A DNA stretch of 40,371 nucleotides from a bacterium (GCA_037481695.1 JBBFLE010000025.1:1-40371); one strand, 5' to 3'. Positions 26,431 through 40,371 are shown, counted from the first letter of the stretch. Translations and numbers: made by a program. Notes: generated by a model from the letters alone, not told the origin.

Positions 26431-26563
26431 GCATGGAAGATGCAATGCATCTCGGCCATTTTTGGTGATAAGAGAATACTAGGAAAGGGGTGAGCGCTGG
26501 AATGAGGTAAAACCTTGCTTCAAGAAGCTGTCTTATTTGCAATGGGAAAGGAGGCGAAAAGAG

Positions 26564-27715
26564 ATGTACAAGAGGGTCGCGATCGTTGGGGTTGGCAGTA
26601 CGGGTTTTAGACCCACCACACCTGATGTCTCGTATCGAGAGCTGACACACGAGGCAGCGGTTAGGGCATACATGGATGCCAACATCGAGCCGAAAGACAT
26701 TGATGGCTTTGTATCTACATCTGAGGATTTCTTGGAAGGATACAGCATCTCAGATGAATACTGCAACGACCAGTTGGGAGCGATTCTGAAGCCAATAAGT
26801 ACTGTCCCGGGGGATTTCATCCAGTCCCTGGGTCAAGCTGTCATGATGGTTCGCTCCGGCGTCTGCAGGATAGTGGCGGTCCAGTGCATGAGCAAGGTCT
26901 CAAATGTACTTACCTTGTCACATGTTGTTGGATTCGCAATGGATCCTAACTATAACCGCCCCCTGGCAATGCATCCTGATTTTATTGCAGGTATGGAGAT
27001 GAACCGTTACCTCTTCGAGACCGGCTCCAGCCTAGAGCAGTGTGCGGCGGTGGTGGTAAAAAATAAGAGGAATGCGCTTTTGAACCCGCTTGCTGGACAT
27101 GGGGCATCGGTCACGGTTGAAGATGTTCTGAATTCCGAGTGGGTCTCCTATCCTCTCCGTCGTCTAGATGTGGCCCCACCTGCCGACGGGGCAGTGGTGA
27201 TGGTCGTGGCAGCCGAGGATGTGGCCAGGTCTCTGAACGAAATGCCCATCTGGATCCGGGGGATAGGGTGGTGCTCCGACACCCCGACGCTGGAGAGTAG
27301 GGACTGGGGCTCAGCAGTTTACACTCGCCTAGCAGCAGAGAGGGCATACAAGATGGCAGGTATCAGGAGCCCGCGCTCTGAAATTGATTTCGTGGAGATC
27401 AGTGACGAATACTCTTACAAAGAGCTTCAGCACCTGGAGGAACTCAAACTATGCGGCCCTGGCGAGGCCGGCTATCTCACAGAATCAGGGGCTACTGAGA
27501 TTGATGGGGAGTTGCCGGTAAATGCTTCTGGTGGCTGTCTGGGGGTGGGTCACCTCTTTGATGCCAACGGTGGACAGAAGGTCCTCGAGGTAGTCCTTCA
27601 GCTGAGGGGTGAAAAAGGCAAGGCTCAGATCCCGGATGCGCGGGTGGGGCTAGCCCAGAGCTGGAGGGGCGTTCCTACTACAACCGGGGCCGTAGTTATC
27701 CTGTCGAACGAGTAG
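26564..27715 (+). CDS. Thiolase-like protein (SCP-x/BbsB-Ltp2 type), copy 1
   Basis: A 383-residue thiolase-superfamily protein: VAIVGVGSTGF at the N terminus, PADGAVVMVVAAEDVA near residue 203, and the C-terminal NASGGCLGVGHLFDANG, equivalent to the thiolase SGGxxxxGHPxGATG. The usual nucleophilic Cys position near residue 85 reads STVPGDFIQSLGQAV with no Cys, and the final Cys motif is replaced by GLAQSWRG. It therefore probably does not do classical thiolysis. Like Ltp2-type aldolases it has a Tyr-rich EYSYKELQHLEEL segment near residue 288. AAAGGAGG is 9 bases before ATG 26564. Partners are the thiolase-like copy 2 and two DUF35 proteins downstream. Confidence 0.88.
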   Translation: MYKRVAIVGVGSTGFRPTTPDVSYRELTHEAAVRAYMDANIEPKDIDGFVSTSEDFLEGYSISDEYCNDQLGAILKPISTVPGDFIQSLGQAVMMVRSGVCRIVAVQCMSKVSNVLTLSHVVGFAMDPNYNRPLAMHPDFIAGMEMNRYLFETGSSLEQCAAVVVKNKRNALLNPLAGHGASVTVEDVLNSEWVSYPLRRLDVAPPADGAVVMVVAAEDVARSLNEMPIWIRGIGWCSDTPTLESRDWGSAVYTRLAAERAYKMAGIRSPRSEIDFVEISDEYSYKELQHLEELKLCGPGEAGYLTESGATEIDGELPVNASGGCLGVGHLFDANGGQKVLEVVLQLRGEKGKAQIPDARVGLAQSWRGVPTTTGAVVILSNE

Positions 27716-27727
27716 GAGGTGAAAGAC

Positions 27728-28891
27728 ATGGGATTCAGAAGAGTCGCCATTGTTGGAGCTGGGATTACAAAGTTTGTTCGCCGGGCCCAGGAGACACCTA
27801 AGGAGTTGGCGTACGAGGCTGTGAAGATGGCCCTGGACTCTTGTGAGATGACCATAAAGGACATAGATTGTGTGGCTTTGGGGACTGCTCCGGATGCGTT
27901 CGACGGAGTACATATGAAAGGCGAATACCTTATAGATGGTGCAGGCGGTTTTCGAAAGCCTTATATGCGTCATTATGTGGGGGGGGGAACCGGGGTCTTC
28001 TCGCCCATCCATGGGTGGTACCATGTGGCCTCAGGGATGTTTGACACATGCCTGGTTGTGGCAGAAGAGAAGATGTCCACATGCCATCCGCATCCTGCTG
28101 GGGCCTTTCTTACCATATTTGACCACACTACAGAACAGCCAATATATCCAACGCTGATCTGGATATTCGCAATGGAAATGCACCGTTATATGCATACCTA
28201 CGGGATTACGAAGGAGGAAATCGCCCTGGTTTCAGTGAAAAACAAGAAAAACGCCATGGACCACCCCTCTGCCCAATTGGGAGAGGAGATAACTGTGCAG
28301 GATGTGCTCAACTCGGAGGTGATGGCATATCCAGTGAACCGGCTGGATATAAGCCCCACATCAGACGGGGCAGCTGCCATCATCTTGGCCGCAGAGCACG
28401 TAGCCAACAGAATAACGGACAAGCCGGTCTGGATAGACGGGATCGGGTACAGCCTTGACACTGCCTACTGGTGCACGAGGGACCTCTGCTATCCCGACTA
28501 TGTGGAGAAGGCAGCCAGGATGGCTTACGACATGGCTGGGATCAGGGAGCCCAGCAAGGAGATCCACGTGGCAGAGCCTTATGACCCTTTCAGCTACAAG
28601 GAACTGCACCACATGGAGGGACTCTTGCTCTGCAAGCGAGGCGAGGCGGCAAAGCTTACTGCAGACGGGGTCACTCAGAGGACAGGAAATCTGCCCATCT
28701 GCCCCTCTGGCGGGGCCCTGGGGGTAGGCAATCCCATTGCGGCCACCGGGTTGATGAAGATCATTGAGATCTTCTTACAACTCAGGGGAGAGGCGGGAAA
28801 GAGACAGGTCCCCGGCAACCCCACCTGCGGGCTGGCTCAGGCTTGGGGAGATTTGATGCAGGTTGGCACCGTTGTAGTCATGAGAAGATAA
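27728..28891 (+). CDS. Thiolase-like protein (SCP-x/BbsB-Ltp2 type), copy 2
   Basis: A 387-residue paralogue of the preceding gene: VAIVGAGITKF, VKNKKNAM, EITVQDVLNSEVMAYPVNRLD, TSDGAAAIILAAEHVA, YDPFSYKELHHMEGL and PSGGALGVGNPIAATG. The nucleophile region reads HYVGGGTGVFSPIHGW without Cys, and the GHP His is Asn here (GNP), so this copy lacks both canonical thiolase residues. It may be a structural partner or an aldolase-type subunit. AGGAGG at 27714-27719 overlaps the stop of copy 1 and is 8 bases before ATG 27728. Likely forms a heteromer with copy 1 plus the DUF35 subunits. Confidence 0.88.
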   Translation: MGFRRVAIVGAGITKFVRRAQETPKELAYEAVKMALDSCEMTIKDIDCVALGTAPDAFDGVHMKGEYLIDGAGGFRKPYMRHYVGGGTGVFSPIHGWYHVASGMFDTCLVVAEEKMSTCHPHPAGAFLTIFDHTTEQPIYPTLIWIFAMEMHRYMHTYGITKEEIALVSVKNKKNAMDHPSAQLGEEITVQDVLNSEVMAYPVNRLDISPTSDGAAAIILAAEHVANRITDKPVWIDGIGYSLDTAYWCTRDLCYPDYVEKAARMAYDMAGIREPSKEIHVAEPYDPFSYKELHHMEGLLLCKRGEAAKLTADGVTQRTGNLPICPSGGALGVGNPIAATGLMKIIEIFLQLRGEAGKRQVPGNPTCGLAQAWGDLMQVGTVVVMRR

Positions 28892-28902
28892 GGAGGGATG
28901 AG

Positions 28903-29421
28903 ATGTTAGATGCTGAGAAGATAAAGGCCACCGTGACCCCGGTGAGCGAGAAAGATGTGGCTCAGGGAAAGGTCTTATCTGTTCGTTGGAAGCCTGATCT
29001 GAGGTATGCGTGGGACAATGGGATCGCTATTGGTCGATATCTCCAGGAGTTGAAAAACGGGAGAATCATGGCAAAAAGATGCAATGGATGCCGCCGCATA
29101 ATGATTCCGCCCAGAATGTTCTGTGAGCTTTGCTGGAGACCAACGGACGAGTGGGTCCAGGTCAAAGACACTGGAACCATAAACACCTTCGTGGTCAGCC
29201 ATATTGACTGGAAGGCTGGGCGTCTGCCTAAGGGGCAAAGGTATTACACTCCGGCGGTTATTGAGATAGATGGCGCTTCTCCCGGCATGGGGCTTTTGCA
29301 CCTCATAGATGAGATAGAGCCCTATGAAATAAAGATCGGGATGAGGGTCAAGGCCGTGTGGAAGCCTGCCAAGGACAGGATCGGGGCCATCACGGATATC
29401 AAGTATTTCAAGCCGATTTAG
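28903..29421 (+). CDS. DUF35 zinc-ribbon/OB-fold protein, copy 1
   Basis: A 172-residue partner of thiolase-like enzymes. The rubredoxin-like zinc ribbon has CNGCRRIMIPPRMFCELC (C-x2-C...C-x2-C) near residues 65-82. It is followed by the OB fold (DTGTINTFVVSHIDW, YYTPAVIEIDG, GLLHLIDEIEP, GMRVKAVWKP). An N-terminal extension of about 45 residues precedes the ribbon. DUF35 proteins such as BbsA, ChsH2 and the archaeal acetoacetyl-CoA thiolase partner bind thiolase-fold enzymes and shuttle CoA thioesters. AGGAGG (28891-28896) is 6 bases before ATG 28903. Ends in KYFKPI, as does the next gene. Confidence 0.9.
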   Translation: MLDAEKIKATVTPVSEKDVAQGKVLSVRWKPDLRYAWDNGIAIGRYLQELKNGRIMAKRCNGCRRIMIPPRMFCELCWRPTDEWVQVKDTGTINTFVVSHIDWKAGRLPKGQRYYTPAVIEIDGASPGMGLLHLIDEIEPYEIKIGMRVKAVWKPAKDRIGAITDIKYFKPI

Positions 29422-29431
29422 GAGGGATGCC

Positions 29432-29908
29432 ATGGCCATTACCGAGAGGATTGCCAAGACTACTGATCTTGGTGCTTGGAGAGGAGAAATCCCCATGGAG
29501 TACATTTACACCATGGGCAGGGCGGGAGAGAAATTCTTTAGAGCCATCAAGGAAAAGGGTCAGCTACTAGGAACGCGCTGCGAAAAGTGCGATCTGGTTT
29601 ATGTGCCTCCGCGCATATATTGCGAGGAATGCATGGCAAGGCTTGAAAATAACTATCTCGAGGTAAGTACAAAGGGGGTAGTCCACACTTTTACCCTCTG
29701 CTATGAGGGTATAGATGGAAACAAACTGGACAACCCCCAACTTGTTGCCATGATCAATTTGGAGGACACAGACGGGGGCCTGGTCCACTTCCTTGGAGAG
29801 GTAGAGCCCAAAGACGTGTATATTGGTATTCCCGTGGAGGCTGTCTTTAAACCCAAGAAGGATCGCCGAGGCGACATCCTAGACATAAAGTATTTCAAAC
29901 CCATCTGA
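29432..29908 (+). CDS. DUF35 zinc-ribbon/OB-fold protein, copy 2
   Basis: A 158-residue paralogue of the previous gene, with CEKCDLVYVPPRIYCEEC as zinc ribbon near residues 51-68. The OB fold (TKGVVHTFTLCYEG, LVAMINLEDT, GLVHFLGEVEP, GIPVEAVFKP) closes with KYFKPI, the same last six residues as copy 1. The two genes are therefore a tandem duplication, each perhaps paired with one thiolase-like protein. GGAGGG lies just before ATG 29432, 10 bases after the preceding stop. An intrinsic terminator follows the stop within 10 bases, so this is the last gene of the operon. Confidence 0.9.
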   Translation: MAITERIAKTTDLGAWRGEIPMEYIYTMGRAGEKFFRAIKEKGQLLGTRCEKCDLVYVPPRIYCEECMARLENNYLEVSTKGVVHTFTLCYEGIDGNKLDNPQLVAMINLEDTDGGLVHFLGEVEPKDVYIGIPVEAVFKPKKDRRGDILDIKYFKPI

Positions 29909-29915
29909 TCCATCT

Positions 29916-29947
29916 GGCGGTGGGGCCGTGCACCCACCGCCTTTTTT
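29916..29947 (+). terminator. Intrinsic terminator of the thiolase/DUF35 operon
   Basis: A 9-bp perfect stem GGCGGTGGG (29916-29924) with CCCACCGCC (29933-29941) and an 8-base loop is followed by TTTTTT (29942-29947), 8 bases after the DUF35 copy 2 stop. Confidence 0.92.
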
Positions 29948-30223
29948 CTTGCCTTTCCCCTGATTTGCTCTGGAGTTCCTCCACTGAACAGATCCAAACA
30001 GACGGGCAGGTAAAAGAGAGCCCTCCAGGGCCCCCCAATACCTTTGTCAAAAAAAGTACCCCTCTCAAAAGCTCATGGCAGTGAAGGCTTGGGTATCAGA
30101 AATCATAAAGAGGTTTTCCCCCCTTTGGTGATCCCAGTTGTGAATAATCCTGGCTGAGGATACTATTGACAAGACCGGTATGATCCGGAAGCCAGATTGG
30201 TGCACTTCAGGAGGTCCTCCAGA

Positions 30224-30649
30224 ATGTCTGATTTGCTTGCTCTTGCGAATCAAGTTATGGCTGCACAACCCTTTAGCGTATTGGTGGGCGCGGAGATTAC
30301 CCAGTTTGGCCAAGGCAAAGCCGAGCTGAGTATTGAACTGTGCGAGAAGCACCGCCAGCAACACGGCTTTGTGCATGGAGGTGTTCTTTCATATGCGGCA
30401 GACAATGCGCTTACCTTTGCTGCTGGAAGCGCATTGGGCCCGGCTGTTGTCACAGCCGAATTCAAGATCAATTACCTTCGCCCAGCCCTGGGGGAAAAGC
30501 TCATAGCCCGGGCCAGTGTGATTCACGCCGGGAAAACCCAGGCTGTATGCTGCTGCGAAGTTTTCTGTGTCAAGCAAAATACTGATTATCTATGCGCCAT
30601 TGCACAAGGCACAGTAAACGTTCTTTCTAACCCCAATTCTTCACAATGA
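30224..30649 (+). CDS. PaaI-type hotdog thioesterase
   Basis: A 141-residue single hotdog-fold protein, likely hydrolysing acyl- or aroyl-CoA. The PaaI signature HGGVLSYAADNAL is near residue 54, preceded by HRQQHGFV; INYLRPALGEKLIARASVIHAGKTQAV is the central strand region. AGGAGG (30209-30214) is 9 bases before ATG 30224; an earlier in-frame start at 30197 would include that site. It stands between the thiolase/DUF35 terminator and the acyl-CoA synthetase. A role in CoA-thioester turnover with these neighbours is plausible but not shown. Confidence 0.92.
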   Translation: MSDLLALANQVMAAQPFSVLVGAEITQFGQGKAELSIELCEKHRQQHGFVHGGVLSYAADNALTFAAGSALGPAVVTAEFKINYLRPALGEKLIARASVIHAGKTQAVCCCEVFCVKQNTDYLCAIAQGTVNVLSNPNSSQ

Positions 30650-31062
30650 GTGAAAAATGCGGGCTGACCTCATGGGATTTCCGGATGAATCCATTTATGC
30701 TCAAACGCACTTTGAACTTCCCTCTGGGGTGGCCCTTGGGTTTAGAACTTAAGATGGCTAAATGTACCGGAGGATTGGGGGCGCAGTCTTCCATGTGGAA
30801 GGCCATTAAAAATATCCGGCCCAGGCAAAGCGGCTGGAGAGCCTGGTTGCATCAGCCAAGCTCATTCAACGAGACAAATGGGCTTGCAGGCCGGGCCCCA
30901 AGGCCCAGGCTGAACTCAGAGGCTTTGGGATTTGGAGTCGGGCCTGGTACTCTAGGCCAGTGGATAGGCACTCATGGATGCAGGTCACAAAGGCCCTTTG
31001 GCAAATGAGGAAGGCCTTATGAGGAAGGGAACAAGGGCTGTGGAGAAAGAGAGAGAAAGGCA
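30650..31062. other. Intergenic region, no convincing gene
   Basis: 413 bases. A 120-codon open frame from 30646 overlaps the thioesterase stop, but its sequence is Gly/Arg/Trp-rich with no domain or strong ribosome site, so I do not call it. Nothing else recognised. Confidence 0.4.
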
Positions 31063-33159
31063 ATGAGGGATCTATTCTATCCCAAGAGTGTGGTGGTGGT
31101 CGGAGTCTCCAACTCCCCTACCAACATGGCCAGGGGAATCGTCTTTAACCTCAACGAATGCCGCTTCAAGGGAGTCATCTATCAGGTGGGCAGAAGCGGA
31201 GGGGTCTTCGCAGGAAGGCGCATCTATCCTTCGGTCCTACAGGTGCCCGACGAACTGGACATGGCTGTGATACTGACTCCGGCCCATACCATACCGGGCA
31301 TTCTGGAGGAGTGTGGTCAAAAGGGGATAAGGAGGGCTGTCATAGAATCAGGAGGGTTTAGGGAGTATGGAGAGGAGGGAAAGCGCCTGGAAGAGGAAAT
31401 CTTGAGGGTCTCGGCCAAATGGGGGATACGATTTGTAGGGCCCAACTGCATAGGAATTATCAACATGGAAAATGGCTTTAGCACCCCTTTCCCTCCCATA
31501 GGAAGAATGGTCAAGAAGGGGGACATATCTGTCATTACTCAAAGCGGGGGAGTTGGGATCTCGGTCTTGCATCTGTTGGCCAACGAGGGACTGGGGTTAA
31601 ATAAATTCGTTTCTGTGGGCAACATGCTGGACATCCAGACAGAGGAATATCTGGAGTTCCTGATTCAAGACCCCAACACCCGGTATATTTTCCTGTACCT
31701 GGAAGGCATACGCCAGGGCCGAAAACTCATGGAAGTGGCCAGGCGCTCTCCCAAGCCCATAGTGGCCTTCAAGGCCAATATCGGAAGGATGGGAAAGAGG
31801 ATAGCATCCTCGCATTCGGCCTCTCTTTCCAGCGACGACCGGGTGGTGGAAGCCGCCTTCCGCCAGGCCGGGATCATACGTGTTCACGATGCCACCACCC
31901 TGGGCAACGATCTCAAGATCCTGAGGCTGCCTCCCATGAGGGGCAGGAACCTGGCCATCATGTCTCGATCAGGCGGTCATGCGGTGATCGCAGCGGATGC
32001 CTGCGAGACCTCTGGACTCAATCTGGTGGAGTTCCCCAGAGATTTTCTGGAGCAGATAGAAGCGCACTTCAGGGCCTCGGTGATCAAACTGACCAACCCC
32101 CTGGACCTGGGTGACCTTTTCGACATGGAGGTATACGCCCAGATAATAGATGAGACCCTGGCACGCCCCGAGGTGGATGGAATGGTCTTCCTCCATACTT
32201 TTCACGCTGCCCTGGAAAGCCAGCCTTCCAGGGAGCTATTCTCCAGGGTGATCAGGCTTTCCCAAAGACACGACAAGCCCGTGGCGCTCTATGTCTCCAC
32301 CGAAGATCAGGAGGTGAGCCACCTCAAGAAGAACCTGGATTTTCCGGTCTTTACCCAAGTGGTTGAAACCATAAGGGCCTTGGAATTGAATAGATGTTAC
32401 CACGCCCAAAAAGAAAGATTGGAGGCCCAAGAGCCCCAAGCCTCCTTAGAGGCAGACACGCGGAGGCTCAAGGAATTGGTGGGAAGAGCCCTTTTGGAGA
32501 AAAGGGACCTTTTGTTACATGAGGCTTTGGAGCTTCTGGCCCTTTGGGGTATACCGGTTGTCAAAGGAGTTGTGGCAGCCTCCAAGGAGGAACTGCTGCA
32601 GGCTGCTGAAACAGTGGGTTATCCGGTGGTCCTCAAGGTGGTCTCCCAAGAGATTTCCCACAAATCGGATGCCGGCGGGGTGGTCCTGGACCTTCGGGAC
32701 GGACAGTCCCTTAGCCAAGCTGTGGAAGAAATGGAAAAGAGGCTCAAAAGAGATTTTCCCAAGGCTCAAATAACAGGTTACATGGTCCAGCCCATGATTG
32801 CTGGAGGCAAGGAACTGATTTTGGGAGGTACCCAAGACCAGCAGTTCGGGCCTGTGGTGCTGGCTGGCATCGGAGGCATATTCGTGGAGGTCTTGGGGGA
32901 TGTTTCCTTGAGGGTGGCTCCCATCTCCAGGCTGGATGCCCAGGAGATGCTCCAAGAACTCAAGGGCTTTCCAGTGCTAAAAGGGGTAAGGGGCGAGAGT
33001 GCCTCGGATCTGGATGCACTGCTGGAGATGCTCTGCAGGCTTTCGGGCCTCATGTGTCAGATGCCTGAGATTCAGGAACTGGATATGAACCCCGTGAGGG
33101 TTTTCCCCTTGGGGCAAGGTGCTTTGGTCTTGGATGCAAGAGTGATACTCAAAAAGTGA
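31063..33159 (+). CDS. ADP-forming acyl-CoA synthetase (acetate-CoA ligase type), fused alpha and beta
   Basis: A 698-residue enzyme that interconverts acyl-CoA plus ADP and Pi with the free acid and ATP. The N-terminal CoA-binding domain (SVVVVGVSNSPTNMARGIVFNL), then the ligase-CoA part (FVGPNCIGIIN, ITQSGGVG) with phosphorylated-His candidate His251 in SSHSASLSSDDR. The C-terminal half from about residue 470 is an ATP-grasp domain (VVLKVVSQEISHKSDAGGVVLDL, GGIFVEVLGDVSLRVAPI). Such fused enzymes make ATP from acyl-CoA in anaerobes and can act on aryl or branched acids. The ribosome site GAGAGAAAGG is weak. The aminotransferase starts 21 bases downstream, suggesting an amino-acid or oxo-acid degradation link. 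Confidence 0.92.
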   Translation: MRDLFYPKSVVVVGVSNSPTNMARGIVFNLNECRFKGVIYQVGRSGGVFAGRRIYPSVLQVPDELDMAVILTPAHTIPGILEECGQKGIRRAVIESGGFREYGEEGKRLEEEILRVSAKWGIRFVGPNCIGIINMENGFSTPFPPIGRMVKKGDISVITQSGGVGISVLHLLANEGLGLNKFVSVGNMLDIQTEEYLEFLIQDPNTRYIFLYLEGIRQGRKLMEVARRSPKPIVAFKANIGRMGKRIASSHSASLSSDDRVVEAAFRQAGIIRVHDATTLGNDLKILRLPPMRGRNLAIMSRSGGHAVIAADACETSGLNLVEFPRDFLEQIEAHFRASVIKLTNPLDLGDLFDMEVYAQIIDETLARPEVDGMVFLHTFHAALESQPSRELFSRVIRLSQRHDKPVALYVSTEDQEVSHLKKNLDFPVFTQVVETIRALELNRCYHAQKERLEAQEPQASLEADTRRLKELVGRALLEKRDLLLHEALELLALWGIPVVKGVVAASKEELLQAAETVGYPVVLKVVSQEISHKSDAGGVVLDLRDGQSLSQAVEEMEKRLKRDFPKAQITGYMVQPMIAGGKELILGGTQDQQFGPVVLAGIGGIFVEVLGDVSLRVAPISRLDAQEMLQELKGFPVLKGVRGESASDLDALLEMLCRLSGLMCQMPEIQELDMNPVRVFPLGQGALVLDARVILKK

Positions 33160-33180
33160 AACTGGCAGGGGGAGATGAGT

Positions 33181-34458
33181 ATGGACACTGTGGAAAAATA
33201 TGCCAAATTCGTAAACACTGCGATGGTGGCCAGGGTGGAGCCTGTGGTGGTGGACAGGGCCCAAGGAGCCACGTATGTGGATATCTCTGGGAAAGAATAC
33301 ATAGATTGCTTCTCAGGAATAGCCGTGACCAATGCCGGGCATTGCCATCCCAGGGTCATAGAAGCAGCCAAAGCCCAGATGGAAAAGCTGGTGCACTGCT
33401 GCTCCTATGTTTATTACAGCCAGCCTACAGCGGATTTGGCTGAGAAGCTTGCAGCCATCACACCTGGAAGGCTGCAAAAGACCTTTTTTGGAAACGGCGG
33501 GGCCGAGGCCATAGAGGGAGCTCTAAGGCTGGCCAAGCAGTTTACGGGAAAGACAGAATTCATAGGGCTCCAGGGATCTTTTCATGGCCGCTCCTATGCC
33601 ACCTTGAGTGTCACAGGTAACTGCGGCCGAAAAAGGAGAGGGGGACCGTACATGGCAGGCTGTACATTTCTGCCCGCCCCTTACTGCTATCGCTGCTTCT
33701 ATGAGCTGAAATATCCCTCCTGCCAGCTTCGTTGTGCCAGAGCCCTTGAGGAGATAATCCTGTACAACACATATGACTCGGTGGCCGCCTTCATAGCCGA
33801 GCCTGTCATGGGCGAAGGTGGGATAATCGTGCCTCCTGTGGAATTCTTCCAGGAAGTGGAGAAGATCCTCAAGAAACATGAAATCCTTTTTATTTGCGAC
33901 GAAGTACAGACCGGTTTCGGCAGAACAGGTAAGATGTTTGCAATAGAGCATTACGAAGTGGAACCCGACATAATGGCCATGGCCAAAGGCATAGCCGACG
34001 GGTTCCCCCTCAGTGGTTTTATTGCCAGAGAGGATGTGGCCGACTCATTCAAGCCCGGGGATCATCTCTCCACTTTCGGGGGCAATCCTGTGTCCTGTGC
34101 GGCGGCTTTAGCCAACATACGGGTCTTGGAGGAGGAGAAGCTGGTAGAGGCTGCAGCGCAGAAGGGAAAGTGGTTTCTGGAGAGATTCCAGGATCTGGCC
34201 TCCAGACACAGGCTAATAGGAGATGTTCGCGGCAAAGGGCTCATGATAGGCCTTGAGCTAGTAAAGGACCCATCCAGCAAAGAGCCGGCTGCAGAAGAAG
34301 GACGCCGTCTGCGCCAGGCATGCCTGGAGAAAGGATTGCTGGTAGGTCTGGGGGGAACCTTTGGAAATGTGATCAGGATCCAGCCTCCTTTGGTCATAGA
34401 GGAGGCTCAGATGGAAGAGGTGCTAAGGGTTCTGCAGGAGGCTCTCTACAACCTCTGA
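33181..34458 (+). CDS. Class III (ornithine/GABA-type) aminotransferase
   Basis: A 425-residue PLP enzyme. Visible: DRAQGATYVDISGKEYIDCFSG, GNGGAEAIEGALRLAKQ (PLP phosphate site), GSFHGRSYATLSVTG, ICDEVQTGFGRTG (the Asp that contacts the PLP nitrogen) and the Schiff-base Lys in MAMAKGIADGFPLSG near residue 269, then HLSTFGGNPVSCAAALA. An unusual CYRCFYELKYPSCQLRC insert near residues 166-184 has four spaced Cys (C-x2-C-x8-C-x3-C), which could bind a metal. ATG 33181 is preferred over 33175 because GGGGGAG sits directly against the latter. Substrate not predictable; GABA, beta-alanine or (R)-3-amino acids are options. Confidence 0.9.
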   Translation: MDTVEKYAKFVNTAMVARVEPVVVDRAQGATYVDISGKEYIDCFSGIAVTNAGHCHPRVIEAAKAQMEKLVHCCSYVYYSQPTADLAEKLAAITPGRLQKTFFGNGGAEAIEGALRLAKQFTGKTEFIGLQGSFHGRSYATLSVTGNCGRKRRGGPYMAGCTFLPAPYCYRCFYELKYPSCQLRCARALEEIILYNTYDSVAAFIAEPVMGEGGIIVPPVEFFQEVEKILKKHEILFICDEVQTGFGRTGKMFAIEHYEVEPDIMAMAKGIADGFPLSGFIAREDVADSFKPGDHLSTFGGNPVSCAAALANIRVLEEEKLVEAAAQKGKWFLERFQDLASRHRLIGDVRGKGLMIGLELVKDPSSKEPAAEEGRRLRQACLEKGLLVGLGGTFGNVIRIQPPLVIEEAQMEEVLRVLQEALYNL

Positions 34459-35542: not shown

Positions 35543-36703
35543 GTGGGGGCCGGAAAGCCAAAAAAATTAAGAGAAGTGGGAAAAAACGTGGGGTTTGTGA
35601 GAAACAAAAGGGCGAAGATGAACCGGAGGAAGTTTCTGGGCCTTGGGCTTGCAGTTGCGGGAACTGCCCTGGTTGGACCCGTAGTTTTCATCCCCAAGGC
35701 AAGGGCTTCTTGGGCTCCCAGAAGCCAGGTGCATCCCAATGTGGACCAACTCCTTGTGGTAGGAGTAACGGATCCTCTCATGACAAGAGGGCTGGAGCCC
35801 AGTTGCAGTTGGAGCAGGCAGGAGGAGTTGGTCGTCCCACAGCGCATCTTTGAGAACATGGACAGGCTTGCCTGCGCCCTAAGCCGTTTGAGGGACCCTG
35901 TACAGGCCTGGAAACAGATCTTTGTAAAGCCTCCTGGTAAGGCCTGGTCAGAGACAGTTGTGGCTATAAAGATCAACAACATAGCTCTTCAGCATACACG
36001 GAGCCCAGTGCTGGCCAAGGTGTGCCAGGTATTTGTGGATTTCTTAGGCGTAAAGCCATTGAACATCAATGTTTATGATGCCATTCATGGGAGCAACATG
36101 AAGGAATCCACTCCCTTCAAGGGTATCCCAGAGGGTGTCAGGATCCAAAATGCCTGGGAGGGTGTGAACACAACCGTGAATGTCCCGGCGCCTTGGAGAG
36201 ACGGGCAGTCCAAGAGTAAATGCATAAAACATCTGGTAGATGGAAGTGTGGACATCTTGGTGAACATAGCCTTATGCAAGGGCCATAGCTCCCGATTCGG
36301 GGGCTTCACCATGAGCATGAAAAACCATTTGGGAACCTTTTCACCCAGGCCAGCGCATGAGGATGGCAGCCAGGACTACCTGATCGCCATAAACAAGACC
36401 CCTGAGATTCTAGGGCCCATGGATGGCAGGTCTGGAAAGGTGCTCTTTCCTCGCCAACAGCTCTGCATTCTGGACGGCCTTTGGGCCAGCAAGGGGGGCC
36501 CTGGAGGCAACCCCACTCATCAGCCCAACTTCCTAGCCATGGGTGTTTTTTCTCCTGTGCTGGACTATGTGGTGGCCACTCAGTTCAGAGGGGAGCAGAT
36601 GGGCTGGAAGCCCGAGATGGAAATGACTCAAAGGATGCTATCGGATTTTGGCTACAGCCCTCTGGATTTGCCCGACGGCGGCAAGATCCTGGAAGCAGGC
36701 TAA
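35543..36703 (+). CDS. Tat-exported DUF362 domain protein
   Basis: A twin-arginine signal peptide MNRRKFLGLGLAVAGTALVGP directs a DUF362-type protein to the periplasm; the cleavage region is ARAS near residue 57 of the long form. The mature part has DUF362-like segments: VAIKINN, INVYDAIHGSNM, DILVNIALCKGHSSRFGGFTMSMKNHLGTFSP and ILDGLWASKGGPGG. There is no ferredoxin CxxCxxC cluster, unlike many DUF362 proteins. GTG 35543 has a good AAGGAGAGG site and would add 25 residues before MNRR; ATG 35618 has a weak site but gives a canonical Tat leader. Enzymatic role is unknown. Confidence 0.88.
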   Translation: MGAGKPKKLREVGKNVGFVRNKRAKMNRRKFLGLGLAVAGTALVGPVVFIPKARASWAPRSQVHPNVDQLLVVGVTDPLMTRGLEPSCSWSRQEELVVPQRIFENMDRLACALSRLRDPVQAWKQIFVKPPGKAWSETVVAIKINNIALQHTRSPVLAKVCQVFVDFLGVKPLNINVYDAIHGSNMKESTPFKGIPEGVRIQNAWEGVNTTVNVPAPWRDGQSKSKCIKHLVDGSVDILVNIALCKGHSSRFGGFTMSMKNHLGTFSPRPAHEDGSQDYLIAINKTPEILGPMDGRSGKVLFPRQQLCILDGLWASKGGPGGNPTHQPNFLAMGVFSPVLDYVVATQFRGEQMGWKPEMEMTQRMLSDFGYSPLDLPDGGKILEAG

Positions 36704-36990: not shown

Positions 36991-38421
36991 ATGGATTCAA
37001 ATTTGAAGTCTCCAGCAAAACAGACCTGGGTGTCCAAAGTCAAGAGCCTGTGGCAATGGCGCCAATTCCATGAAAAGCCCGGAGTTGTTTCTGCCTGGTG
37101 TACACTCATGGGCCCTTTGCTTGCCTGGGCAACACCGGCCAGGAGAAGAACACTTCTGGCCCTGGGCGGCCTTTTCATGGCGCTCAAGTATGTTCTTAAG
37201 TCCACGGCAGGAAACACCCTCTGGAAAGGTTCAGGGCAGTATTTGCCAGATCTTGCAGCAGCCCTGTGGGCAGTTCTACTTGTTTTGCTCTTGTTTTGGT
37301 TCTGCTATTACTTGGCATCAAATTTCCAAAGGCTTCCAAGTGTTTTTAGAAAAAGTCCTCAGCTTTTTCTCCACGGGTTGTTTTGGGCAATCTTGTTTGT
37401 CATTTGGGCAAGCTCTCCTGGAGACGGACTTCCTGGAGGCCTCCTCATCGGGCTTGCCATGATGCTTCCCTTTTTCCTCTGGCGCCTGGGTTACATGTTT
37501 CTCTCAGGCCAAAGAGGCAGGGTATCTGGCACCAGATTCAGAGATCACCTGATGTACCTGTGGCCCCTTTACGGGGGATCCAACACTCCCTACGGAAAGG
37601 GTCTGGACTATCTATCCAGAACCGAGGCCAAAGATCCCCAGGCCTTGGCCCGCAGTCAGCTGGCTGGTTTGAGGCTACTGATGCTGGCCGCTCTCTGGAT
37701 GGTTGTCAAGGAGGTACTGAATGCAGTGGTTTTTGGTGCTGACAACAGCCTCAGACAGGCCATGGGAGGGTTGAGCCTGGAGGTTCCCAGATTGAGTTTC
37801 TTGTTGGTGCACCCTGATGGGGGATGGGGAGGGCTTGGTTGGTTGAGTGTTTATGGGGAACTTTTCATGAACGTGCTCAACCGGGCGGCTAAGGGCCACG
37901 TGATCATAGGGATTCTTAGGCTTTTCGGTTTTTATGTTTTCCGAAACACCTACAAGCCCTTGCTGGCTGAGACCGTAGTTGGATTCTGGAACCGATATTA
38001 TTACTATTTCAAAGAGCTTCTGGTGGAGTTTTTTTTCTATCCCACCTTCGCCAGCTGGTTTCGAAAAAGCCCCAAGTTGAGGCTTTTTGCAGCAGTTTTC
38101 ATGGCAGCCTTTGTGGGCAACATGTATTATCACCTCATAAGAATGACAGGGGAGCTGGTGGCCGGGGATTTCAGGGCCATATGGTCTGCCTTGCACCTCA
38201 GGATAGTTTATTGTTTGATGTTGAGCACGGGGGTTTTTTTCTCTATGCTTAGGGAACAAAAAAGGATAAGGCAGGGGCCTTCACGAAGCCCCTTGAGACG
38301 GGTTATGGCCGTCTTTGGGGTCTGGAGTTTCTTTGCCTTCATAAACATCTGGAATCAAAAGGGCGCGGGCAGCTTGGAGTCCACAGTCAGGCTCCTCATG
38401 GGACTTGTGGGACTGGGCTGA
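36991..38421 (+). CDS. Polytopic membrane protein, possibly MBOAT/DltB-like
   Basis: A 476-residue membrane protein with about ten hydrophobic segments. Near residue 331 the sequence ETVVGFWNRYYYYFKELLVEFFFYPTF resembles the MBOAT segment where an amphipathic FWRRWH-type helix is followed by a YIPL loop. A His in GNMYYHLIRM near residue 381 could be the conserved catalytic His. These are weak similarities read by eye. Support comes from context: the next two genes encode an AMP-forming ligase and an acyl carrier protein, the DltA and DltC partners of the MBOAT transferase DltB. Function proposed: transfer of an activated acyl or aminoacyl group across the membrane. Otherwise unknown. Confidence 0.75.
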   Translation: MDSNLKSPAKQTWVSKVKSLWQWRQFHEKPGVVSAWCTLMGPLLAWATPARRRTLLALGGLFMALKYVLKSTAGNTLWKGSGQYLPDLAAALWAVLLVLLLFWFCYYLASNFQRLPSVFRKSPQLFLHGLFWAILFVIWASSPGDGLPGGLLIGLAMMLPFFLWRLGYMFLSGQRGRVSGTRFRDHLMYLWPLYGGSNTPYGKGLDYLSRTEAKDPQALARSQLAGLRLLMLAALWMVVKEVLNAVVFGADNSLRQAMGGLSLEVPRLSFLLVHPDGGWGGLGWLSVYGELFMNVLNRAAKGHVIIGILRLFGFYVFRNTYKPLLAETVVGFWNRYYYYFKELLVEFFFYPTFASWFRKSPKLRLFAAVFMAAFVGNMYYHLIRMTGELVAGDFRAIWSALHLRIVYCLMLSTGVFFSMLREQKRIRQGPSRSPLRRVMAVFGVWSFFAFINIWNQKGAGSLESTVRLLMGLVGLG

Positions 38422-38444
38422 AACTATTTGGATAGAGGTGGGAG

Positions 38445-39968
38445 ATGTTTCTGGATCTGAACGTAGGTGATCTGGTGGAACCCCTCAGCGGTCGTAGATG
38501 GGATAAAAAAGAAACGGCTGGCCAGGTGAGCAGACGCGCGGCCAGGTTTCGAAAGATGGGTCTGCTGCCTGGGGACAGGGTTTTCATTCTCTTCGGGAAC
38601 AAGCCGGAGTTTTTCGCCGAGCTTCTAGCAGTGTGGAGGATGGGAGCCTGCCCCATACCAGTGGACAGCAGGCTCACCCCTTTCGAGGCCGAGAACCTGG
38701 CCAAGGCGGCCAGTCCCAAGATAGCCGTGGTAGATGAGAATTCCACATCCTCCCAGACCGCCCAGGCTCTCTCGCGCCTGGGGGTAATGGTGGTACACAC
38801 CCTGGAGAACTCCCCAGAAGAGGATTTGCCCTCGTATGTGATGCTGGAGCAGGATGCCCTCATGCTTTTCACCTCGGGATCCACGGGAGATCCCAAGGGG
38901 GTGGTCCACACCCACCGCTCCTTGAGAGCCAGGTGGATCTCTCTGAGAGATCATCTGGGGCTGTCTGCTTTTAAGAGAACCCTCTGCATTCTGCCCACAC
39001 ACTTCGGCCATGGCCTGATTTGCAACTGCCTTTTCCCGTGGCTTTCGGGCCAAGATCTCTACATTGCTCCCCCCTTCCGCCACGAGCTGGTCATGCGCCT
39101 GGGTAAGCTCGTAGATGAGAACGAGATAACCTTCTTATCCTCGGTTCCGGCCATATGGAGGATGGCCCTGAAGTTGGCCCGCCCCCCAGAGAGGGGAACC
39201 CTGGCTCGGGTGCATTGCGGATCGGCTCCCCTTTCGGCTCACATGTGGGAGGACATAAGAAAGTGGGCCGGCACCCGTCACGTTTGCAATGCTTACGGGA
39301 TAACTGAGACCGGAAGCTGGGTGGCCGGACTGAGCGATGCAAGTGTGCCGGCTGAGGACGGCCTCATAGGCCCAGGTTGGGGGGCCGTGGTTCGTGTGTT
39401 GAAAAGCAATGAGGTTCAGGGAGCCCTGGATCCAGAACTTTGTTGTGATGTGGGAGAGGAGGGATTTGTGTGGCTTAACACACCGGCTCTCATGAGGGGC
39501 TATTTCAACCGGGAGGACCTTACATCTGAGAATGTGGTCAACGGCTGGTTCAGGACAGGAGACAAGGGTTTTCTGGATGAGAGGGGATGGCTTACCCTGA
39601 GGGGTAGAGTTCGGGACGAGATCAATAAGGGGGGAATGAAGGTTTTCCCTTCTGATGTGGACTGTGTGGTGGAGCGCTTCCATGCCACAGTGGATGTGTG
39701 TACCTTTGCCATAGATGATCCTCTTTATGGCCAGAACATAGGTATGGCTGTGGTGCTCTCGGACAAAGGGGAGGATACCATTCGTTCCCTCTACGCCTGG
39801 ATGAAAGAGCACCTGGCAGAGGCAAAGTTACCTGTTCGCTGGTGGCTCATGGAGGAGATCCCCAGAACTTCCAGGGGAAAGGTAAACAGGGATTCGGTCA
39901 AGGCCAGTTGTGAAGGGAGGAGTCCTCTGGATTTGGCCGGGATTTTGGCAAGGGGTAAAGGCCCATGA
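38445..39968 (+). CDS. AMP-forming acyl/aminoacyl ligase
   Basis: A 507-residue ANL-superfamily adenylating enzyme. Visible core motifs: A3 LFTSGSTGDPKGVV near residue 142, A5 NAYGITETGSW near residue 282, A7/A8 GWFRTGDKGFLDERGWLTLRGRVRDEINKGG near residue 366, and A10 PRTSRGKVNRD near residue 474 with the C-terminal catalytic Lys. It activates a carboxylic acid as adenylate and probably loads it on the ACP encoded by the next gene, whose ATG overlaps its stop. It begins 23 bases after the membrane-protein gene. The substrate is not predictable: D-alanine, a fatty acid or an aryl acid are all possible. Confidence 0.92.
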   Translation: MFLDLNVGDLVEPLSGRRWDKKETAGQVSRRAARFRKMGLLPGDRVFILFGNKPEFFAELLAVWRMGACPIPVDSRLTPFEAENLAKAASPKIAVVDENSTSSQTAQALSRLGVMVVHTLENSPEEDLPSYVMLEQDALMLFTSGSTGDPKGVVHTHRSLRARWISLRDHLGLSAFKRTLCILPTHFGHGLICNCLFPWLSGQDLYIAPPFRHELVMRLGKLVDENEITFLSSVPAIWRMALKLARPPERGTLARVHCGSAPLSAHMWEDIRKWAGTRHVCNAYGITETGSWVAGLSDASVPAEDGLIGPGWGAVVRVLKSNEVQGALDPELCCDVGEEGFVWLNTPALMRGYFNREDLTSENVVNGWFRTGDKGFLDERGWLTLRGRVRDEINKGGMKVFPSDVDCVVERFHATVDVCTFAIDDPLYGQNIGMAVVLSDKGEDTIRSLYAWMKEHLAEAKLPVRWWLMEEIPRTSRGKVNRDSVKASCEGRSPLDLAGILARGKGP

Positions 39969-40243
39969 ACCAGCTGAGGGCCCAAAGAAGGGCGCATCTC
40001 ATGGGATTTCTAAAACAGATCCAAAAAGCAGGGGTGCCTGTGGAAAACATAGGGGACGAGGATGGTCTGGTGGCCTCTGGCCTGATAGATTCTCTGGCCA
40101 TCATGGAGATAGTGGTGTTCCTGGAAGAGAACTATGGAATAGACTTCTCCAGACGGGGGATAGATCCAGAGGAGTTGGGCTCCATAAAAGGCATACTGGA
40201 TCTCATAGAAAGGGAAGAAAAAACTCTGGGCAGCTCTGGTTAG
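39965..40243 (+). CDS. Acyl/peptidyl carrier protein
   Basis: A 92-residue carrier protein. The phosphopantetheine attachment segment SGLIDSLAIMEIVVFLEENYGIDF has the DSL motif with Ser43, and the four-helix pattern continues with DPEELGSIKGILDLI. It begins with an Arg-rich N-terminal helix (RAQRRAHLMGFL), longer than in standard fatty-acid ACPs. ATG 39965 overlaps the ligase stop (ATGA) and AGGGGT lies just upstream, so the two are translationally coupled. Acts as the cytoplasmic carrier of the group activated by the ligase and offered to the membrane protein, by analogy with DltC. Confidence 0.92.
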   Translation: MNQLRAQRRAHLMGFLKQIQKAGVPVENIGDEDGLVASGLIDSLAIMEIVVFLEENYGIDFSRRGIDPEELGSIKGILDLIEREEKTLGSSG

Positions 40244-40371
40244 CCCAACTACGGCAGTCTGCAGAGCAAAATGCAATGGTCATGCGGACTTTTTTACAGG
40301 ACTTTACAAGTTAGCATCGACCAAACAGGGATATCCATTTGATATCAGGTAATAATCTGGTCAACTAACCT

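Follow-up and report, generated by a model that had tools for sequence, protein, structure and literature searches.

A Dlt-like gene cassette in a diderm sulfate reducer

Carrier-dependent acylation by a DltB-type transferase is textbook Gram-positive biology. What would a cassette of similar make-up attach, and to what, in a bacterium with an outer membrane? The locus that raises this question lies at the end (position 40371) of a 40,371-nucleotide stretch of bacterial DNA, here called the window, which is an entire contig. It was described in an initial annotation, made from the sequence alone, as a DltBAC-like cassette of a diderm sulfate reducer. ORF calling recovered three co-directional genes in a tight operon where they had been placed (Table 1). 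The transferase and ligase genes are 23 bp apart, and the proposed ATGA coupling of ligase and carrier is present; in relatives of the same gene order this junction has overlaps of 1 or 4 bp. The description of the host is borne out by a genome with lpxC (7e-109) and dsrA above curated cut-off. An internal TAG was reported in dsrA, but the frame is open for 401 aa, and recoding is not claimed.

Only 128 bp separate the carrier stop from the contig end, and no open frame runs through them. With the contig end beside the cassette, the absence of a DltD gene next to it cannot be judged from the window alone. Upstream, at positions 26537-34458, is what is probably an acyl-CoA operon of its own, encoding two thiolase-domain proteins together with an ADP-forming acyl-CoA ligase and a class III aminotransferase. 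Just 5' of the cassette (35543-36703) lies a DUF362 gene, whose product gave a weak match to the twin-arginine signal.

Table 1. Features of the cassette, in window positions
Feature	Position	Strand	Details
Polytopic membrane protein, predicted DltB-like MBOAT-fold acyltransferase	36991-38421	+	476 aa; AlphaFold2 model, Foldseek/VIA-align
MBOAT signature FWNRYYYYF, residues 332-340	37984-38010	+	nearly all positions invariant, 39 relatives
His381, candidate catalytic His	38131-38133	+	invariant in 39/39 relatives
AMP-forming acyl ligase	38445-39968	+	507 aa; PF00501 5.3e-57
Ligase A4 region PTHFGHGLI, without alpha-amino-binding Asp	38994-39020	+	alignment of 45 cassette ligases
Ligase A10 lysine K479	39879-39881	+	invariant in alignment
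ATGA overlap, ligase stop/carrier start	39965-39968	+	read from sequence
Acyl/peptidyl carrier protein	39965-40243	+	92 aa; PF00550 1e-5
Ser43, phosphopantetheine site of DSL motif	40091-40093	+	invariant in 24 relatives

The membrane protein is predicted to be a DltB-like MBOAT

The window transferase, on its own, matched no Pfam or NCBIfam model. The suggested check against PF03062 (MBOAT) came back negative, with no match above cut-off in the window protein, its genome or 39 relatives, and the transferase profile found nothing among PDB sequences at E<=1. Among 39 transferases the only NCBIfam model matched was TIGR04091 (LTA_dltB), by five relatives (best 3.1e-6, these being E-values given without comparison to a cut-off) and not by the window protein. 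This is a transferase family without a Pfam or NCBIfam model of its own.

A structural model was generated with AlphaFold2 from a 39-sequence input (mean pLDDT 91.2, pTM 0.88). The three best Foldseek matches in the PDB were DltB chains (6bug and 8jem, E 8.5e-6 to 4.6e-5); 6bug is a known DltB structure, although its entry title reads only 'membrane protein'. VIA-align likewise put two DltB structures on top (Z 22.2 and 21.6), followed by MBOAT7 (18.4), PORCN (17.8) and LPCAT3 and HHAT (~17), and its top ranks were occupied entirely by MBOATs (DltB, MBOAT7, PORCN, HHAT, LPCAT3, DGAT1 and ACAT, Z 22 to 11). A prediction lacking the MBOAT fold had been named beforehand as the outcome that would speak against the assignment; the predicted structure is an MBOAT, with DltB as its best match.

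Profile comparisons point the same way. Through its columns ~280-343 the family profile picks up classical PF03062 MBOATs of the same phylum, several of the loci found in that search coincide with independent PF03062 matches, and hhalign of the family against 23 classical MBOATs gave 96% (E 1.8e-9). The motifs that had been noticed near residues 331 and 381 were located at 332-340 and 381 and are conserved in the 39 relatives, where W333, R335, YYYYFKE (336-342) and H381 are invariant. In a merged alignment with classical MBOATs, FWNRYY falls on FWRRWH, and His381 stands one column off the canonical WHG His, the alignment being a forced one.

The three genes are conserved partners

Among 84,980 species genomes scanned, the transferase was found at 61 loci. 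The 59 that were counted come from Proteobacteria, Verrucomicrobia, Nitrospirae, Acidobacteria and others, and 42 of them have all three genes together; the other 17 are mostly cut at contig ends or hold surplus transferase copies. With M for transferase, L for ligase and C for carrier, the gene orders are LMC (17 loci), MLC (13), LCM (8) and CML (4). The co-occurrence that the initial annotation had proposed as a check is found across distant phyla. That the partnership has survived four rearrangements argues strongly for joint action of the three genes.

In the window's own phylum, a strong transferase match was obtained in only 3 of 395 genomes sampled, and the window transferase clusters with Verrucomicrobiota (support 100/99). 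This combination suggests that the cassette was acquired by horizontal transfer. A search with two query sequences found no plasmid-borne copies.

Several loci depart from the standard layout. One Deltaproteobacterium carries four tandem transferase copies followed by an LtaS-like gene (L024:8001-13627), as if the copies served several acceptors or donors. In L007, L011 and L020 an LtaS-like gene comes after the transferase and both ligase and carrier are lacking, and L016 has a solo transferase; for L007, L016 and L020, a complete cassette is present at another place in the assembly (L017, L010 and L018). In a genome of the window's family (G002, locus L002), the transferase runs to residue 179 and is followed by DNA matching carrier residues 59-88, a junction that reflects either a deletion or a chimeric assembly.

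The ligase is not DltA-like

Like the window cassette, the Gram-positive Dlt system (DltA-DltB-DltC-DltD-DltX) combines an MBOAT, an AMP-forming ligase and a small carrier in a tight operon. The second gene does encode an AMP-forming ligase, with Pfam AMP-binding and AMP-binding_C domains, but comparison with the amino-acid ligases of sister cassettes showed that it is not of the amino-acid type. The A4 region of the window ligase and of its closest relatives is LPTHFGHGLICN, whereas amino-acid adenylation domains have FDxS; the A4 Asp that binds the amino group is missing throughout the window clade. The best solved relatives are feruloyl- and fatty-acyl-CoA synthetase, FadD13, oxalate-CoA ligase, MenE (o-succinylbenzoate-CoA) and MatB (malonyl-CoA). 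The DltBAC analogy thus stood for the transferase fold and the carrier and failed for the ligase, which is of the CoA-ligase type. Judged from these motifs, the substrate of the window ligase is probably not an alpha-amino acid.

More distant cassettes with the same transferase family have true amino-acid adenylation domains, carrying FDxS and YGPTE, the split between amino-acid and acyl ligases being drawn by motif comparison. For one such ligase, from a Nitrospirae genome, the nearest solved relatives are NRPS A domains. In the transferase tree, rooted at its midpoint, amino-acid ligases occur to either side of the deepest split, and the acyl ligases are confined to a single nested set of 20 rows (support 91/89). 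A single ligase swap is the simplest history for this arrangement, and the ligase seems to have been exchanged once within the cassette family. The ligases of Magnetococcales (L033, L035, L036, L037 and L047) have the pocket code DAYEVGSICK or close variants, as taken out by a motif rule. The ornithine-activating BacB module is likewise reported to have Glu at code position 4 (PMC10522769), which makes a diamino acid a reasonable guess; the Magnetococcales codes are suggestive of a substrate such as ornithine or lysine.

The carrier resembles DltC-type proteins

The third gene was rightly called a carrier protein: it matches the PP-binding family and has the DSL Ser. Its profile matches peptidyl, aminoacyl and D-alanyl carrier proteins, and with D-alanyl carriers among the matches and an invariant DSL Ser it has the features of a DltC-type carrier. 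Against NCBIfam, ACP_for_OlsHI (ornithine lipid synthesis) was among the best models, far under cut-off, and a cispentacin (beta-amino acid) carrier model came second, under cut-off.

The cispentacin match bears on one alternative, in which lipid A or core would gain positive charge from a beta- or omega-amino acid, beta-alanine or GABA for example. An amino acid that is not of the alpha type can do without the A4 Asp, and sister clades have amino-acid ligases, including the diamino-acid-like code of Magnetococcales. Within the window clade, however, nothing speaks positively for an amino substrate, and the best solved ligase relatives are CoA ligases for ordinary carboxylic acids; we regard this explanation as improbable. 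Its model would be AlmEFG of Vibrio cholerae, which places glycine onto lipid A, is functionally analogous to Dlt (PMC3783018) and likewise unites a ligase, a carrier and an acyltransferase in a diderm. AlmG, however, is an LPLAT-type transferase, in contrast to the predicted MBOAT fold of the window protein, and the Alm ligase activates glycine whereas the window ligase is not of the amino-acid type.

DltD is missing and no DltX motif was found

The initial annotation had seen neither DltD nor a classic DltX beside the cassette, and the wider search agrees with it. DltD (PF04914) was found nowhere in the window's genome, in a search for which Bacillus subtilis and Lactococcus lactis served as positive controls. 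In DltX and PatA-type MBOATs, a C-terminal FXYXXF motif forms a Tyr shuttle (PMC12148441). All 39 transferases lack this motif at the C-terminus, and the related loci have no short ORF with it inside or close to their cassettes. The sole regex match to a DltX-like microprotein, in L064, is a piece of the transferase itself and was rejected. The scan covered the FXYXXF motif only, with the window's own 3' flank ending at the contig end, so a relay protein of another build could have escaped it. That the cassette works without a DltX-like relay is supported but not proven by these sequence comparisons; if it does, transfer of the acyl group to the acceptor must be direct.

The motif search also bears on O-acetylation of the kind carried out by PatAB, AlgIJX and WssHI, MBOAT plus SGNH systems that likewise place an MBOAT-fold membrane protein in a diderm envelope. 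The donor would then be acetyl-CoA, and the ligase and carrier would serve something else. The MBOAT superfamily spans both kinds of enzyme, but the systems named have the FXYXXF Tyr shuttle on extra C-terminal helices and work without a carrier protein (PMC12148441), whereas the window cassette has a carrier partner and its transferase lacks the shuttle motif. For 58 downstream neighbours, the 25 commonest Pfam families include no SGNH partner; a further 27 families are rarer. Given how steadily ligase and carrier accompany the transferase (42/59 loci), O-acetylation is very unlikely.

Neighbouring genes point to a phospho-decorated acceptor

In related loci, 16 of 58 downstream co-directional genes belong to the PF00884 sulfatase superfamily. 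Those typed further are LtaS/phosphoglycerol-transferase-like (L025) or CptA phosphoethanolamine transferases (L028, L040), and such neighbours adjoin cassettes of both ligase types. By association, they point to a phospho-decorated envelope acceptor. The window cassette has no LtaS or CptA gene alongside in a 3' flank that ends with the contig. Its genome has one LtaS-like gene, on a different contig (L067, G000:C5), which overlaps the next membrane-protein ORF, PAP2-type phosphatase-like by eye.

These genes have to be weighed for two further explanations. The first is a true Dlt system, in which an LtaS-like enzyme would make a teichoic-acid-like polymer that receives D-alanine in ester linkage. 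DltB is the closest fold, and LtaS-like genes adjoin the cassettes of relatives and occur once in the window genome; against this stand a ligase that is not of the amino-acid type, a genome without DltD and with no DltX motif found, and a diderm host with lpxC. Taken together, these differences make a true Dlt system hardly credible.

The second is a lipid-making role: with a fatty acid delivered by the ligase and carrier, the MBOAT would acylate a small membrane lipid or head group at the cytoplasmic face instead of an exported envelope polymer. Many MBOATs do act on lipids as acyltransferases, fatty-acyl-CoA synthases and FadD13 are among the nearest ligase relatives, and the sub-threshold ACP_for_OlsHI match of the carrier would fit. 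The best structural match, however, is DltB and not a lipid MBOAT, sister cassettes have amino-acid ligases, and the neighbours are head-group transferases that act outward. We consider this role unlikely, with a real but small chance of being correct.

Other neighbours were noted in particular lineages. In nine window-clade relatives (L006, L009, L012, L013, L017, L021, L022, L028 and L029) a gene of the isocitrate-lyase/PEP-mutase family overlaps the carrier stop (xTGA), with an RRCGH motif in L009. Its product may be the acid loaded on the carrier. The gene was not found in the window's genome or in the remaining 128 bp, so it is not claimed as an acid source for the window. Directly 3' of two amino-acid-type cassettes lie spermidine-synthase-related membrane proteins (L060:9123-11549 and L063:9034-10452), of which the L060 protein matched an MFS/spermidine-synthase fusion model above cut-off.

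A proposed route of envelope acylation

With the predicted fold, the gene partnership, the ligase class and a genome free of DltD as its observed basis, the cassette is best read as a Dlt-like envelope acylation system that uses a different acid and dispenses with the DltX/DltD relay, a reading to which we assign a probability of roughly 60%. The ligase would adenylate a carboxylic acid, probably not an alpha-amino acid, and load it as a thioester on carrier Ser43, a step suggested by family chemistry and intact motifs. The carrier would then dock at the cytoplasmic face of the MBOAT, as the DltB-like fold and the conserved gene partnership imply. From there the MBOAT, probably through His381, would carry the acyl group across the inner membrane. 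The acid and the acceptor we infer: the latter would lie in or at the membrane, and the likeliest choice is an envelope glycan or lipid with phospho decoration, for which LPS core, lipid A or an osmoregulated-glucan-like polymer are candidates. This proposal draws on the LtaS/MdoB-like or CptA-like head-group transferase that comes next in many relatives.

A broader generalization is possible and is offered tentatively. The cassettes may represent a separate DltB-like family that horizontal transfer has carried into many diderm phyla and that needs neither DltX nor DltD, acylating phospho-decorated glycans or lipids of the surface directly. Its ligases would be interchangeable: those of Magnetococcales would activate diamino acids, those of the window clade a carboxylic acid, and the remaining ones other amino acids. 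Some members of the window clade would make their carboxylic acid with the coupled isocitrate-lyase/PEP-mutase-family enzyme.

Carrier-dependent ligase-transferase cassettes (Dlt, AlmEFG) and MBOAT acylation in diderms (PatAB) are already known; no description of the present cassette was found in the literature searched, in which subscription journals are sparsely covered. If the proposal is correct, an MBOAT hands on its acyl group without the Tyr/Ser relay thought to be general for envelope acylation. The cassette would then point to undescribed surface modifications of Gram-negative bacteria, possibly including positive-charge modifications beside phosphoethanolamine transferases.
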